From contig JAISJJ010000141.1 of NCBI GenBank assembly GCA_031261585.1, positions 1 to 49,273 on the forward strand: a DNA stretch of 49,273 bases, given 5' to 3'. Numbering within the stretch: position 1 is the stretch's first letter; every line of letters starts with the position of its first letter. Of this stretch, positions 38,526 to 45,675 are shown in pieces. The stretch comes from Oscillospiraceae bacterium (GTDB taxonomy: Bacteria > Bacillota > Clostridia > Oscillospirales > Oscillospiraceae). The notes below the pieces were generated by a model. That model was not told where the DNA came from. It did not search any database and was given only the letters and a program-made list of their open reading frames with translations. Both the position numbers and the translations under genes were made by a program.

Positions 38526-39773
38526 ATGAGCATTACAATTTCAGAGAATCTGAAAAAACTGCGCCGCGCGAGCGACTTGACGCAGGAGGAGCTTGCGGAG
38601 ATCATCGGCGTGTCGCCGCAAACGGTGTCCAAGTGGGAGCGTGGCGAGAATTTCCCCGACATCACGTTCCTGCCCGCGCTCGCGAACTATTTCGAGGTGA
38701 CGGTCGACGACCTGCTCGGCATGGCGGAGATTCGCGACGCAAAGCGCGTAGCGGACGCGGAAGCGCGGCACATGACGCTGTCGCTCGACCAAAAATTCGA
38801 TGAGATCACAGAGATGTGGCGCGAACTGGCGCGCGATATGCCGCACAACTACGAGGTGCAACTGCGTTACGCGACGCAGCTCGCGCAGGATCAGGTCGGG
38901 CAGTTCAGCTTCACCCCCGAGGATTACCTCGCGCGCAAGCAACCCGCGATAACAATCTTCGAGCATATCCTCGAAAAATGCACCGACGACGGGATTCGCA
39001 ACCGCGTGTACAGCCAACTGTCGACCATCTACAACAACTGCGGCGACGCGGAAAAGGCGTATGCCTATGCGGACAGACTGCCCGAATTTTTGCAGTGCCG
39101 CGAGAACCTGCGCATGAATATCGCGCAACTTGAAGCATCGCGGTATCAGAGCGGCGGTAGCGTGTTAAACGGTCTCGGTATCGACCCCGACGAGTTAAAA
39201 GACCTCGACGAGGACGCGAAGCGCGCGCTCGTGATGAAAAAGTTCCTCACACCGAGAGAGCGCGAGCCGATAGAGTACGACCCCGAGGTCGTCGAGGGCT
39301 TCCTCAACGAAATCCGCCAGCCGATGCGCCAGTACGCGAGCCATGCGGGTATCGCGCTACGCAACTTGGTCACGTTTAAAAGCATGTTCGGCGTTGATCG
39401 CGGCGGCGAGTACTTGGAAATGCTGAAAACGTCAATGGTAATCTCCGAGATTATGATGTGGGATGAGCCGCAGGACGCCGACCGCCACAGCGGTTCGTAC
39501 TTCAACCTCGCGCAGGAGTACATGAAAACAGACCATGCCGCCGCGCTCGACTACGCCGTAAAGGCGATTGAGGACATGGCGAAGTTTCCTCGCCTCGACA
39601 CGCAAATCGGTAGCGGCACCACAATCGACGAGGACGGTCACGTCGTGCGCACCGAGAGTGAGACGATTCGGGAGATGCACCTCCGCATGTTCGACGGCAA
39701 CGAGGTGTTCGACCCGATACGCAACGACCCGCGATTCGTCGCGGCGATGGCGAAACTGCGCGGCGAGGTGTAG
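38526..39773 (+). CDS. XRE-family HTH regulator with TPR-like C-terminal region (paralogue 3)
   Basis: ISENLKKLRRASDLTQEELAEIIGVSPQTVSKWERGENFPDITFLPALANYFEVTVDDLLG; C-terminus FDPIRNDPRFVAAMAKL. Confidence 0.9.
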   Translation: MSITISENLKKLRRASDLTQEELAEIIGVSPQTVSKWERGENFPDITFLPALANYFEVTVDDLLGMAEIRDAKRVADAEARHMTLSLDQKFDEITEMWRELARDMPHNYEVQLRYATQLAQDQVGQFSFTPEDYLARKQPAITIFEHILEKCTDDGIRNRVYSQLSTIYNNCGDAEKAYAYADRLPEFLQCRENLRMNIAQLEASRYQSGGSVLNGLGIDPDELKDLDEDAKRALVMKKFLTPREREPIEYDPEVVEGFLNEIRQPMRQYASHAGIALRNLVTFKSMFGVDRGGEYLEMLKTSMVISEIMMWDEPQDADRHSGSYFNLAQEYMKTDHAAALDYAVKAIEDMAKFPRLDTQIGSGTTIDEDGHVVRTESETIREMHLRMFDGNEVFDPIRNDPRFVAAMAKLRGEV

Positions 39774-40014: not shown

Positions 40015-40092
40015 CCGCCCTCTTCCACGATCGCGGTTACTTTTTGTAACTAATCACTCGGAGAGCTGACCGTTTGTCGGTAGCACCCTTAT
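40005..40092 (-). ncRNA. Candidate antisense RNA antitoxin
   Basis: Minus-strand TTGACA (40127-40122), 17 bp, TATAAT (40104-40099), start expected near 40092; ends at 14-bp hairpin CAAAAAGTAACCGC/GCGGTTACTTTTTG (40005-40046) overlapping the toxin 3' end. Confidence 0.7.
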
Positions 40093-40159
40093 GACCGCAT
40101 TATACCACCCCCGCGCCCGTTTGTCAAGCGGTAACAATACGAAATTGCGAGGTTACGCC

Positions 40160-40996
40160 ATGCCCACCACACAATCGACCACCGCCGAAAAATACAACAC
40201 ACTGCGCGAATCGCTCGCCGCGCTGCCGAACCTGCTCGTCGCGTTCTCGGGCGGCGTGGACTCGACGCTGCTGCTCATGACGGCGCGCGACGTGCTGGGC
40301 GACCGCGTGAGCGCGGTCACGGCGCGATCGTGTTCGTTCCCGAAGCGCGAACTGACTGCCGCACAGCAGTTTTGCGACGATTACGGTATCCGTCACTTCA
40401 CGGTGGAGAGCGAGGAACTCGACATCGACGGGTTCCGCGAGAACCCCGAAAACCGTTGCTATCTCTGCAAAACCGAGCTGTTCGAGAAGATTTGGGAACT
40501 CGCGCGCGAGAACAATATCGGACACATCGCCGAGGGCTCGAACACCGACGACGAGGGCGATTACCGCCCCGGTCTGATCGCCGTGCGCGAACAGGGCGTG
40601 CTGTCGCCGCTGCGCCACTCGGGGCTGTCAAAAGCCGAGATTCGCGAGCTGTCGCACGAGCGCGGACTGCCGACATGGGACAAACCGAGTTTCGCGTGTC
40701 TCGCGTCGCGCTTCCCGTACGGCGAGACGCTGTCGGAGGAGAAACTCACGCAGGTCGACCGCGCGGAGCAGTTCCTGCTCGACCTCGGACTGCGGCAGGT
40801 GCGCGTGCGTCACCACGGCGCGATCGCGCGCATTGAGACAGACGAGGCGGGGTTCGCGCTGCTGACCGCAGATACAGAGACGCGCGAAAACGTAACAAAA
40901 GCGTTGAAATCGTTCGGGTTTACATACGTCGCGCTCGATCTGCTGGGGTATAGGACAGGCGCGATGAATGAGCAGTTGACGGCGATTGACCGTTGA
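40160..40996 (+). CDS. larE: ATP-dependent sacrificial sulfur transferase LarE
   Basis: LLVAFSGGVDSTLLLMTARDVLG (PP-loop); NRCYLCKTELFEKI; AEGSNTDDEGDYRPG; PSFACLASRFPYGE. Confidence 0.92.
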   Translation: MPTTQSTTAEKYNTLRESLAALPNLLVAFSGGVDSTLLLMTARDVLGDRVSAVTARSCSFPKRELTAAQQFCDDYGIRHFTVESEELDIDGFRENPENRCYLCKTELFEKIWELARENNIGHIAEGSNTDDEGDYRPGLIAVREQGVLSPLRHSGLSKAEIRELSHERGLPTWDKPSFACLASRFPYGETLSEEKLTQVDRAEQFLLDLGLRQVRVRHHGAIARIETDEAGFALLTADTETRENVTKALKSFGFTYVALDLLGYRTGAMNEQLTAIDR

Positions 40997-41245
40997 TAAT
41001 TGAAAATTAACGAGATAGGACGGGAGTTGTGGCACAGTTGTAATCCCCGTCCTAAAATTGCCCATGATATTACCCGCGTTGACACGTTTGAGGGGTATAA
41101 AAGCGGCTTGCCGCTGTATGTGAAACAGCGGCATTAGCCATCAATCAAGAAAATATCATATATATTAAAAATTCGCTTGACTTTCTATTTGCGTTGTGGT
41201 AGTATAAAAAAATTGTTTATGTCGCGCGGGCGGGAGGTATGCAAA

Positions 41246-41461
41246 GTGACGATAAACTACAACAGGCTATGGAAACTTTTAATTGACAAGGGGTTAAATC
41301 GGACGGAACTAAAACGCCTTGCAAGGGTTAGTACGAACGCAATCGCAAAAATGGGCAAGAATGAACCAGTCGCGATGGAAACGCTGGCTAAAATATGCGC
41401 CGCCCTTGATTGCGGCGTTGACGATATAGTAGAAATGAAAACCGATAACGGGGGTAAATAA
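41246..41461 (+). CDS. Small XRE-family HTH protein, putative restriction-modification controller
   Basis: GTG start after GGGAGG; INYNRLWKLLIDKGLNRTELKRLARVSTNAIAKMGKNEPVAMETLAKICAALDCGVDDIVE; 3 bp before the methylase. Confidence 0.8.
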   Translation: MTINYNRLWKLLIDKGLNRTELKRLARVSTNAIAKMGKNEPVAMETLAKICAALDCGVDDIVEMKTDNGGK

Positions 41462-41464
41462 TCA

Positions 41465-42397
41465 ATGGCTATTCATAACAAATCGCATAACAATCATGCT
41501 TTAATGTCACTGAACAAAATGCGCAAAGATAATAGCACGAAACAAAAAAGCGCAAAAGACTTTGATAAATTTGGCGAAACAAAGATTTTAATTAGTATAA
41601 TGGATTGTTGCGACTTCTTAAAAGAATTGCCCGATGAATGCGTGCAAATGATTTGTATTGATCCCCCCTATAATCTTGAACTCACAGGTTGGGATATTTA
41701 TGAAAACTATATTGAATGGGCGGCAAAGTGGTTGGAAGAAGCGTATAGGGTTTTGTCAAAGAACGGAAATATGGTAATATTTGGAGGAACGCAATTTCGT
41801 GATGCGAAATCAGGTGACTTAATTGATATAATTCAATATGTTAGACGAAATACGAAATTTAAGCTGATTAATACAATCGTTTGGTATTACAAAAATGGTA
41901 TGTCTGCACACAGATACTTTGCTAATAGGCACGAGGAAGTAATTTGGTTGGCAAAGTCTAATGACTATTATTTTGATTTGGATTCCGTTAGAGTTCCGTA
42001 TTCAGAAGAAGATTTGAAGCTTGCATTAAAGGACAAACGACTGAATCCTGAAAATACAATGAAAGGTAAAAATCCTACTAATGTTTGGCAAATTGGTCGA
42101 CTAAATGGGAATAGCAATGAGCGCGTGGGACACCCGACACAAAAGCCCGTTGAGATTGTTGAACGCCTTATCAAAGCCCTTTCATGCCGAAGCTCGGTTG
42201 TTCTTGATTTTTTTGCAGGAAGCGGGACTGTCGGCAGAGTATGTATTGCCGAGGGTAGGCATTGCCTGTTGTGCGATAGTGATAAGTCTACACTTGATTA
42301 CTTTACAAAGCACATTGAACAGATGAGAAACTTAGGCAAAGATACAAGCCATATAGAGGTAGAAAGCATAAATGAGTTTTTCAAGGCTAATGTCTGA
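41465..42397 (+). CDS. Type II DNA adenine methyltransferase, M.RsrI-like
   Basis: QMICIDPPYNLELTGWDIYENYIEWAAKWLEEAYRVLSKNGNMVIFGGTQF; YKNGMSAHRYFANRHEEVIWLAK; RLNGNSNERVGHPTQKPVEIVERLIKAL; VVLDFFAGSGTVGRVC. Confidence 0.92.
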   Translation: MAIHNKSHNNHALMSLNKMRKDNSTKQKSAKDFDKFGETKILISIMDCCDFLKELPDECVQMICIDPPYNLELTGWDIYENYIEWAAKWLEEAYRVLSKNGNMVIFGGTQFRDAKSGDLIDIIQYVRRNTKFKLINTIVWYYKNGMSAHRYFANRHEEVIWLAKSNDYYFDLDSVRVPYSEEDLKLALKDKRLNPENTMKGKNPTNVWQIGRLNGNSNERVGHPTQKPVEIVERLIKALSCRSSVVLDFFAGSGTVGRVCIAEGRHCLLCDSDKSTLDYFTKHIEQMRNLGKDTSHIEVESINEFFKANV

Positions 42398-42434
42398 AAG
42401 AATATAATGTTATCGTAAGGAGCTAATTGGTGTT

Positions 42435-43274
42435 ATGAAAAAAAGACAATCAAATAGATTAACAGAACAACAAAAAGAGGGACAGGGACCTATTTCGATT
42501 TTTCACGCAGATGCCCAAGAGCACGATAAAGAAGTGAATAGTACTTCAATTATTGCTATGCAGCGACTTTATGCCAAATTTCCAATGCTGGCGTTCAGAT
42601 ACAGGAAAGACCTTCAAAAAAAAGAAATTAACGAATCTTTACAAAAGATTGATAAATACCTTGGGCAAACGCTTTTTGTCGAAAATGCCAGTATAAAGCC
42701 CGATGGCGGTATAATCGAAGTTAAAGATGATAATGGAAACTGGCGGGTGGTGTTGATTTCAGAAGCCAAGCACCAAGGGAAAGACATTGAGAATATTGCA
42801 AAAGGCATTCAAGTTGGTGTAAAAAGCAATCAAGATACAATGGTTGCCGGAAATGCTATTGAGAGGGCACACAAAAATATCAACGAAATAGCAAACTATA
42901 TGTTAGGCGAACGTCACTTCCCATATATATTATTTTTAGAAGGCTCAAATTTTTTAACGCAAAATGTTGATATTACGCGCCCTGACGGGAGAACTGTAAC
43001 ATTAGTCTATAATGCTGGTGGACTTAATCGGCTTGACAGGCTGACAGCTGCAAATTACGGTATGCCAATAAATACGAATCTATGTGAAAATAGATTTGTG
43101 CTATGTAATGGCGCAAGTGTCATGTTACAAGCCACGTCGATTTACACCAAGGGCGAGGGCGGGCATTGGAATTCCGAGGATATGACCGATATTATGCTTG
43201 AAGTTGCCCAAACTTCTCTAAAAGTGTTAGGAAAAGATCTTTTCGGGCAACTTAGTATGAACGCCGATACATAA
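42435..43274 (+). CDS. Type II restriction endonuclease, EcoRI family
   Basis: KKRQSNRLTEQQKEGQGPISIF; SIKPDGGIIEVKDDNGNWRVVLISEAKHQGKD; GNAIERAHKNINEIANYML; HFPYILFLEGSNFLTQNVDITRPDGRTV; NRLDRLTAANYGMPINTNLC. Confidence 0.93.
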   Translation: MKKRQSNRLTEQQKEGQGPISIFHADAQEHDKEVNSTSIIAMQRLYAKFPMLAFRYRKDLQKKEINESLQKIDKYLGQTLFVENASIKPDGGIIEVKDDNGNWRVVLISEAKHQGKDIENIAKGIQVGVKSNQDTMVAGNAIERAHKNINEIANYMLGERHFPYILFLEGSNFLTQNVDITRPDGRTVTLVYNAGGLNRLDRLTAANYGMPINTNLCENRFVLCNGASVMLQATSIYTKGEGGHWNSEDMTDIMLEVAQTSLKVLGKDLFGQLSMNADT

Positions 43275-43361
43275 ACAGCGGCAATTGTAATATTTTCGGT
43301 GTATTGCAAAGCAAAACAAGGTACTTTTTGTAGATTTAAGCGATAAATAAGCGAATTTTCA

Positions 43362-43416
43362 AACACACAAAAGCCAAAAAGCCTTGTAAATACGGGATTT
43401 TCGGCTTTTGTGTGTT
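43362..43416 (+). terminator. Terminator-like inverted repeat downstream of the endonuclease gene
   Basis: AACACACAAAAGCC (43362-43375) / GGCTTTTGTGTGTT (43403-43416), perfect 14-bp arms. Confidence 0.65.
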
Positions 43417-43614
43417 AGGGGGCTTTGGACGTTTTTCTGTGATTCACAGCACCTGCGCCAATCCCACCGCTTCTCCCCCGCGTACGGCCATACCTCGTCA
43501 CCACAGCCTTGAACCCCTCCATATCACGCACCACGTCGTAAAACGCACTGTTGAGATAGCCGAGTTCTCGCGCTATCGCGTTTTGCGGCGAGCCGCTTGT
43601 GATGTTCATCTGTT

Positions 43615-43774
43615 ACGTAGGGACGGACGACCCCGTCCGTCCTGTATTCTGCATAACCATACAAGGACGGACAGGGTCGTCCGTCCCTACGCACGAGACC
43701 GCGACGCGAATCAAACGCAACCCTCGTCCAAACCCTCGTAACTGTTAACTGTTAATTGTTAACTGTTAATTGAC
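43615..43774. repeat. Repeat element: GTAGGGACGGACGACCCCGTCCGTCC inverted pair plus heptamer array
   Basis: GTAGGGACGGACGAC...GTCGTCCGTCCCTAC arms; TAACTGTTAACTGTTAATTGTTAACTGTTAATTGACC at 43739-43774. Confidence 0.8.
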
Positions 43775-44963
43775 CAACCGCCGCGTCGAACCTCGGGTCT
43801 CCGCGCAACGGGTCGAACTGCGGATTTTCCGCGTACATGCGCGCGATTGCACCGATGTCTACAACGCTGAAATGCGCGCCCGTGCCGTCGTTCTGCCGCT
43901 CGTGAGTGGCGAGCGTGTACTGCACCGCACGCTCTAAGTAGCCGATTGCGCGCTCCGCATCGAACGGTGCGAGGTACCGCGCGCAGTCCTCGCAGTGGTG
44001 GAGTTGCGCGGCGATATCGCCGTCCTCGATCATGCGCACGATAACCGCGCGCGTCTCGGGGTCGAGGTCGGGATTGTCCTCGGGCGCGCCCGTACTCGGC
44101 ACGAACCGACTGAACGGCAGCAGCTTTTCGCGCAGTTCGAGCATCGCGACGGTCTCGTCGCGGTCGAGCGTGCCGCGCCGCAATTTCTCCTGCAACACGA
44201 TGCGAATACTCTCCTGCAAATACCCCGTGAAACCGGGGACAAACTGCCGCAATCGCTCGAACTGCGCGTCGGGCAGACCGCCGTTCTCGTAATTCGCGCT
44301 CGCGTAGTTGTTGAGCAGCCGCAGCAGCAGACCCTCGCAACTCTCGGACATATGCGGCAACTCCTCCGCCGCCGCTACCAGCTTGTCGAGGTCGCCGAGC
44401 GTACCGTACACGTCCGCGCGGCGCGACAACGCCGTGTACCGCGTCGCGCTGTCCGTACAGTTCGCGAGCACCTTGTCCAACACATCGATTGCGTCGTTCA
44501 GCCGCTCTGTTTTGCGCATGTCGGACGTCAGACGCGCCGCGTACTCGATTTGCAGCTCGTAATGCGTCGGAAACTCGCGGATGATGTCGCGGTACATGCC
44601 GTACAACCGCTCGTTGAACTCCGCCATGTCCGCGTCCGCCGTTTCGTCGAGCTGTGTGATGGCTATCGGGTTCGGATTCGAGCTCATGCGCGCGAACTGC
44701 TCCTGAAACATGTCGGTGACGCGCTGCTGAAAGTCCGCGATGCGCTGTTCGTCGCGGAAACGCTCCATGCCGATAAGCTCGTCGACCGTGACGGCGAAAC
44801 AGTTCGCGAGCGCGGGCAGCATATCCATGTCGGGGTAGCACGCGCCCAACTCCCACCGCGACACCGACTGCGGCGACACGTCGAGAATCTCCGCAAGCCG
44901 CTCCTGCGTCATCTCGCGCTCCCGACGCAGCCGTTTGATGTTCTCCGCAATGCCGATTTTCAT
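43752..44963 (-). CDS. XRE-family HTH regulator with TPR-like C-terminal region (paralogue 4)
   Basis: MKIGIAENIKRLRREREMTQERLAEILDVSPQSVSRWELGACYPDMDMLPALANCFAVTVDELIG; C-terminal GQLTVNN encoded by the heptamer array. Confidence 0.9.
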   Translation of the reverse strand: MKIGIAENIKRLRREREMTQERLAEILDVSPQSVSRWELGACYPDMDMLPALANCFAVTVDELIGMERFRDEQRIADFQQRVTDMFQEQFARMSSNPNPIAITQLDETADADMAEFNERLYGMYRDIIREFPTHYELQIEYAARLTSDMRKTERLNDAIDVLDKVLANCTDSATRYTALSRRADVYGTLGDLDKLVAAAEELPHMSESCEGLLLRLLNNYASANYENGGLPDAQFERLRQFVPGFTGYLQESIRIVLQEKLRRGTLDRDETVAMLELREKLLPFSRFVPSTGAPEDNPDLDPETRAVIVRMIEDGDIAAQLHHCEDCARYLAPFDAERAIGYLERAVQYTLATHERQNDGTGAHFSVVDIGAIARMYAENPQFDPLRGDPRFDAAVGQLTVNN

Positions 44964-45100
44964 CGTCTCCCGCCTTTCGTGATGTGATAACGGCATTATA
45001 TCACACCGAGCAGGATTTTCAAGCGCGCGAAACGAGAGATTTATTCACGCAGGACGTGAGGGGTAAAGGCGGCGGCGCGAGAAATGTGTTGATAATTTGG

Positions 45101-45128
45101 TTGACAAAGACATAGAATATGATATAAT
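45101..45128 (+). promoter_or_regulatory. Consensus sigma-A promoter
   Basis: TTGACA (45101-45106), 16-bp spacer, TATAAT (45123-45128), 7 bp before ATG 45136. Confidence 0.7.
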
Positions 45129-45135
45129 CAAGTGC

Positions 45136-45675
45136 ATGAAGATTCCGTCAGAGTATTATTCTCAGGGAGGTATTCCTCCCGATGTTCTCGACACCGTCGG
45201 TAGGGTAATCGCCGAATTCGAGAGGGAATACACCCTTAATCTGAATGATGTTGTCGCTGAGAGCATGGGTTCGGAGAATCAAGGTGTTGTGTTTCAGTAC
45301 CGCCCGCTGAACAAATCGGGGGCAACAGACCCGAGAGTGTACATCAACACAGATTACAATTTTGACAATTTGAGGTTTGCGTTGAAACGAAACTTTGAGG
45401 GTGGAGTCCTTTCCGAACGCACAATCGACGAACTCGTTCGACACGAATTGGCACACGCCTTGACGTTTCAAGGCGTTCCGTTAAACCGCCTTAATGCATT
45501 CAACGCGGAGTTAAACGAGGAGTTTGTGCGTGGTGTGTCCTTGTATTCCGACAGACTGCGTGATGGGGCGGAAGCAATCGCCGAGGCTTTCACTAAGTTG
45601 GAGCGCGGAGAATCCGTTCCCGAAGAGGCAAAACTGCTTGTAGAGCGGTTAATCTATCGTTGGAGGAAAAAATAA
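45136..45675 (+). CDS. HExxH zincin-like protein, possibly prophage-derived
   Basis: TIDELVRHELAHALTFQG (HELAH) with helical surroundings; TAATG overlap with the next ORF. Confidence 0.65.
   Translation: MKIPSEYYSQGGIPPDVLDTVGRVIAEFEREYTLNLNDVVAESMGSENQGVVFQYRPLNKSGATDPRVYINTDYNFDNLRFALKRNFEGGVLSERTIDELVRHELAHALTFQGVPLNRLNAFNAELNEEFVRGVSLYSDRLRDGAEAIAEAFTKLERGESVPEEAKLLVERLIYRWRKK

Follow-up and report, generated by a model that had tools for sequence, protein, structure and literature searches.

An intact EcoRI/RsrI-type restriction-modification operon of predicted GAATTC specificity and probable horizontal origin in an uncultured clostridial genome

The window, i.e. the whole stretch of 49,273 nucleotides of Oscillospiraceae DNA that was analysed, contains a compact operon with the genes of a small helix-turn-helix (HTH) protein, a DNA methyltransferase and a restriction endonuclease (Table 1). 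The three co-directional reading frames listed in the preliminary description of this DNA are all present and intact. Endonuclease and methylase are encoded by separate, adjacent genes with the same predicted specificity, which is the arrangement of an orthodox Type II restriction-modification (R-M) system. The contig also holds core chromosomal genes, among them mfd, ParB and YchF; the host assembly comprises 2.28 Mb in 161 contigs. The closing 14-bp repeat was found as a perfect repeat (43362-43375 / 43403-43416, fold z −4.4), but its terminator-like character holds only in part, as no T-run follows it. The repeat is absent from the list of the consensus scanner. Rfam matches and tRNAs were searched across the window and none were found. 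Internal or reverse promoters of the kind known from EcoRI are not claimed, with 12 promoter-like sites against 7.5 ± 3.4 in shuffled sequences. The inverted repeats I3 and I4 that bracket the AT-rich block were considered as ends of a mobile element and rejected, their occurrence being estimated near chance level.

Table 1 Features of the R-M operon and its downstream flank (positions in the window)
Feature	Position	Strand	Basis and remarks
Candidate regulator-binding element AATATCAT (AATATCAC in relatives)	41152..41159	+	Starts 25 nt 5' of the −35 hexamer; putative function
Candidate operon promoter TTGACT-17-TAGTAT, extended −10 (TG)	41177..41205	+	Consensus scan; same architecture 5' of the HTH gene in relatives
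Shine-Dalgarno sequence GGGAGGT, 7 nt 5' of the GTG start	41232..41238	+	Direct reading of the sequence
Putative regulator, HTH_26 / VanU-like Cro-CI protein, 71 aa, GTG start	41246..41461	+	Pfam HTH_26, PDB 3tyr
N6-adenine DNA methyltransferase, M.RsrI type (DPPY, FAGSG), 310 aa	41465..42397	+	M.RsrI 1eg2; Pfam N6_N4_Mtase
EcoRI-family restriction endonuclease, 279 aa	42435..43274	+	EcoRI 1ckq; PF02963; PADLOC REase_II
Hairpin with 14-bp perfect stem at operon end; terminator-like, no T-run	43362..43416	+	Inverted repeat and fold
Remnant of an XRE/TPR-type regulator gene, C-terminal ~50 codons	43440..43609	−	Flank, outside the R-M system; recombination scar

The operon differs in composition from its surroundings. 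Its GC content falls to 0.35-0.43, in agreement with the AT-rich stretch noted earlier, whereas most flanking DNA lies at about 0.58-0.64. The same holds for codon usage: GC3 is 0.49 for the HTH gene, 0.36 for the methylase gene and 0.35 for the endonuclease gene, while nine of the ten other measured genes of the window lie at 0.77-0.85, the exception being the gene at 45097-45675 with 0.53.

The endonuclease matches EcoRI over nearly its whole length, as had been suggested from its translation. In a phmmer search against solved structures residues 2-274 aligned with EcoRI (1ckq, E = 6e-113), and 175 of 276 residues (63%) are identical to plasmid-borne EcoRI. The Pfam family EcoRI (PF02963) scored 444 bits (cut-off 22) with positions 2-257 of 257 covered, and PADLOC tagged the protein as REase_II. 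The catalytic block pointed out earlier is kept, with P90-D91 and E111-x-K113 all identical to EcoRI, and the recognition residues Q115, M137, N141, E144, R145, R200 and R203 are identical as well, together with H114, G140, A142, K148 and N149. For most of these residues the roles in EcoRI are known (P90, D91, E111, K113, H114, Q115, M137, N141, E144, R145, K148, N149, R200; PMC3806743, PMC11755562). Differences from EcoRI at marked positions are K130→V, at a phosphate contact, A138→V, E192→V and I197→G.

The methylase is of the M.RsrI type, with DPPY and not the NPPF of M.EcoRI, in agreement with the preliminary description: M.RsrI (1eg2) was matched with E = 3e-97, 146 of 285 residues (51%) are identical, and the protein carries the DPPY and FAGSG motifs and matches Pfam N6_N4_Mtase. 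The further reading, that the locus joins EcoRI-type cleavage to RsrI-type methylation, stands insofar as both gene types are present. It does not stand as a mixture of two systems, because R.RsrI is itself a homologue of EcoRI, 50% identical and with the same G/AATTC cut (PMC5896346). The pairing is thus the plain RsrI arrangement, and a chimeric EcoRI × RsrI system was rejected, also because this pairing predominates among the clostridial endonucleases of the clade described below. The RsrI system of Rhodobacter sphaeroides shares with the window an EcoRI-family endonuclease and a DPPY N6-adenine methylase, the likeness to R.RsrI being taken from the published description, whereas the window system is clostridial and has an HTH_26 gene before the methylase gene. 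The EcoRI system of E. coli plasmids resembles the window in the endonuclease, in which all tested catalytic and contact residues are kept, but combines it with a methylase of the NPPF M.EcoRI family and has the gene order R-M instead of M-R preceded by an HTH gene. In the proposed mechanism an endonuclease homodimer would cut unmethylated G/AATTC in incoming DNA, and the methylase would N6-methylate an adenine of the host GAATTC sites, by analogy with M.RsrI presumably the second A (GAmATTC).

The distribution of the two methylase types was followed among relatives of the endonuclease and on an endonuclease tree. Such relatives are encoded by 173 public-genome stretches, of which the best 80 were kept; methylase types were counted for 76 full-length, uninterrupted relatives, plasmid and genome-relative loci included. 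An M.EcoRI-type gene lies downstream of the endonuclease gene in 34 of the 76, an M.RsrI-type gene upstream in 23 and downstream in 9; both types occur in 7 loci and neither in 3. The methylase type is strongly clustered, with 9 changes compared with 29.6 in shuffles, and the endonuclease of the window falls into a well-supported clade of 22 with 18 RsrI-type loci and 3 that have both types, on what is a quick tree with long branches. The M-R unit is kept in many clostridial genomes at 70-82% protein identity. L012, L014 (Bittarella massiliensis) and L002 have the gene order of the window with 77-80% identity in the endonuclease and 76-82% in the methylase, and some of them have the same HTH gene; in contrast to the window, sequences have diverged and the HTH gene is absent or decayed in many of the clostridial M-R relatives.

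The HTH protein matches Pfam HTH_26 (E = 8e-16) and PDB 3tyr (E = 4e-14) and is nearest to 3tyr and VanU-like regulators. The best match among C proteins, C.BclI, is marginal (E = 0.06), and no clear homology to characterised members of the canonical C-protein family was found. Homologues are encoded directly 5' of the methylase gene in L002, L004, L009 and L012 (60-66% identity), with a decayed copy in L014, and the putative recognition helix is conserved among the linked homologues. In all six loci with an HTH gene, the window included, AATATCA(C/T) starts 25 nt before a TTGnnn box, and the TG belonging to an extended −10 element lies 44-45 nt 3' of this start, although these loci are not independent, since L002, L004 and L009 are close kin and L012 and L014 likewise. 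Among 24 M-R loci that have no HTH gene, promoter and AATATCA at this fixed spacing occur in one, L010. In a search for palindromic C-boxes overlapping the promoter no inverted repeat of the window promoter passed the scan; the conserved AATATCAC element is found there instead. C-protein-controlled Type II systems such as PvuII and BclI are similar in that their operons begin with a small Cro/CI-like HTH gene and have a conserved element upstream. The operon of the window differs from them in its HTH_26/VanU-like protein, and the scan found no C-box symmetry in its promoter.

Methylase and endonuclease genes would be transcribed after the HTH gene from the shared promoter, and the HTH_26 protein probably binds AATATCAC 5' of this promoter and autoregulates the operon. 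Such control is plausible because the promoter and the upstream element are conserved in all six loci with an HTH gene. Alternatively, the HTH protein could be an unrelated passenger or the former regulator of a mobile element that has no control over the R-M system. The gene is missing from most M-R relatives, the affinity of the protein is to VanU-type regulators with only marginal similarity to C.BclI, and L010, which keeps the promoter and not the gene, suggests that the promoter can work in the absence of the gene. The direct linkage 5' of the methylase gene in six loci, the conserved putative recognition helix and the fixed spacing of the element speak against a passenger, which we therefore regard as rather unlikely, though it deserves serious weight. 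The best-known member of the family, EcoRI, has no C protein, and its regulation is known for intragenic reverse promoters (PMC3874152). Going beyond control of this one operon, we tentatively suggest that a VanU-like HTH_26 protein acting on a AATATCAC operator may represent a second class of controllers dedicated to Type II R-M systems, here on a system of the EcoRI/RsrI type; we hold this to be possible, at somewhat less than even chances.

Horizontal acquisition of the operon, as proposed earlier, is well supported by its foreign GC3, its absence from congeners and a segment in a different genus of the family that is 93% identical at DNA level. The endonuclease and a close methylase homologue were each sought in 11 congeners, several of them with incomplete genomes, and detected in none (0/11 for both). 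In a sample of 295 genomes of the order, PF02963 was matched in only one besides the host. The segment in the other genus, L023, which appears to be contig G017:C57, covers 666 nt of the 3' part of the endonuclease gene at 93% DNA identity, and its product is the closest relative among the best 80 of 173 stretches kept (92% protein identity). Near residue 61 this copy gives way to unrelated sequence that reaches the end of the contig (L023:1-115), which may reflect truncation or mis-assembly. A clean empty site was sought among the congeners and none was found, since the genus has conserved the upstream LarE-like neighbour (40091-40996) but not what surrounds it.

On the downstream side, 45 amino acids of the XRE/TPR-type remnant share 80% identity with the C-terminal end of a full-length paralogue, a 384-aa frame in G000:C40, elsewhere in the window's own genome, and the remnant has 47% identity to a full-length 375-aa frame in G003:C50. 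An expanded family of XRE-type regulators, whose C-terminal regions are long and TPR-like, has members in the window at 38526-39773 and 43752-44996 in addition to this remnant beside the island. Two dispersed intergenic repeats were also observed in the flank: an inverted repeat with 35-nt arms (GGGACGGACG...) at 43609-43698, with 12 core-string matches in about 0.4 Mb sampled, and GTTAACTGTTAATTG runs at 43740-43775, with 11-22 core-string matches in about 0.4 Mb sampled.

The host genome is poor in GAATTC. It contains 110 sites (48 per Mb). Ten of the 11 congeners have about 240-340 per Mb, and Markov models, built on an unselected contig sample and scaled up, give an expectation of 224-419 sites. 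Samples of congeners that have no such R-M system are at expectation (G011, 14 observed and 16-17 expected; G007, 12 and 9-14). However, the congener G003 is equally poor, with 117 sites in 2.4 Mb, and no EcoRI or methylase homologue was detected in its genome, which is 89% complete. The scarcity in G003 could be the trace of a lost system, of which genomic examples have been described (PMC4687349), the effect of another, non-homologous enzyme, or the result of an assembly gap. Besides, GAATTC ranks only 18th-28th in depletion among 64 palindromes in the host genome, so that palindrome avoidance appears to be general there. The avoidance of GAATTC need not stem from the operon for these two reasons, and we take the footprint as support and not as proof. 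Long-term avoidance of the site also accords poorly with an operon acquired recently (PMC4687349).

The earlier proposal of a complete Type II system of the EcoRI/RsrI kind, predicted to be specific for GAATTC, is supported by the homologies, the conserved residues and the scarcity of this site. We conclude that the locus is very probably a horizontally acquired, intact and orthodox Type II R-M operon of the EcoRI/RsrI kind, whose specificity and activity are strongly predicted from its sequence. It could also be a decaying or silent island, with genes that look intact but are unexpressed or inactive and have survived by chance after recent transfer. The foreign composition, the 5'-truncated relative at 93% DNA identity in another genus, the decayed HTH gene of L014 and the adjoining remnant would fit such a history; considering that all three frames are open, the promoter is plausible, the catalytic residues are intact and GAATTC is scarce genome-wide, we consider it improbable.

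Position 192 of EcoRI has a role in promiscuity. V192 and V138 recur among natural endonuclease homologues, in 16 and 10 of 76, respectively, and are thus regarded as tolerated. The substitution A138T turns E. coli EcoRI promiscuous and raises its star activity at AAATTC (PMC11755562), and since V138 sits at the same place, the fidelity of the window endonuclease could differ. A homologous operon with relaxed or shifted specificity, e.g. for GAATTC plus AAATTC, through positions 138 and 192, to which the AAATTC star activity of the natural isoschizomer LraI (PMC5896346) would lend a precedent, is nevertheless very improbable, as every tested direct base-contact residue is kept and the host sample shows no depletion of the star sites AAATTC/GAATTT (62 observed, 33-48 expected) while GAATTC is depleted, so that the AAATTC counts gave no support to relaxation by V138. 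Read as an orthodox system, the operon extends the textbook EcoRI family to an uncultured clostridial lineage as a further member of a widespread and well-known type of defence system, and it makes a clear prediction, namely m6A at GAATTC and cutting at G/AATTC.

Many other 6-bp palindromes are more strongly depleted in the host than GAATTC. In G000, with the sampled loci L089-L098 and L134-L153, 8 GGCGCC sites were observed where an order-3 model expects about 346, 3 AGCGCT where it expects 96, 5 CTGCAG where it expects 81 and 5 GTGCAC where it expects 78, which suggests a past of several other restriction systems. CTTAAG is nearly absent from G000, G008 and G009 (6, 4 and 6 sites) in comparison to 414 sites in G003; a Markov model likewise expects few such sites in the sample of G000 (about 4 in 224 kb), thus composition explains part of this difference.

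More unusual than the locus of the window are operons outside it in which one EcoRI-like gene is flanked by an intact DPPY M.RsrI-type gene and an intact NPPF M.EcoRI-type gene in the same direction (L005:5097-7789 from Blautia glucerasea, L022:5036-7760 and L056:5025-7893). From their gene content these dual-methylase operons look like intermediates in the replacement of a cognate methylase. Such relatives, some of them cultured like Blautia glucerasea, now allow a study of the puzzle posed by EcoRI and RsrI, i.e. related nucleases with unrelated methylases, and in this respect the comparison set is of more use than the window locus. Both methylase types also occur around an EcoRI-like gene in L007, L046, L050 and L065.
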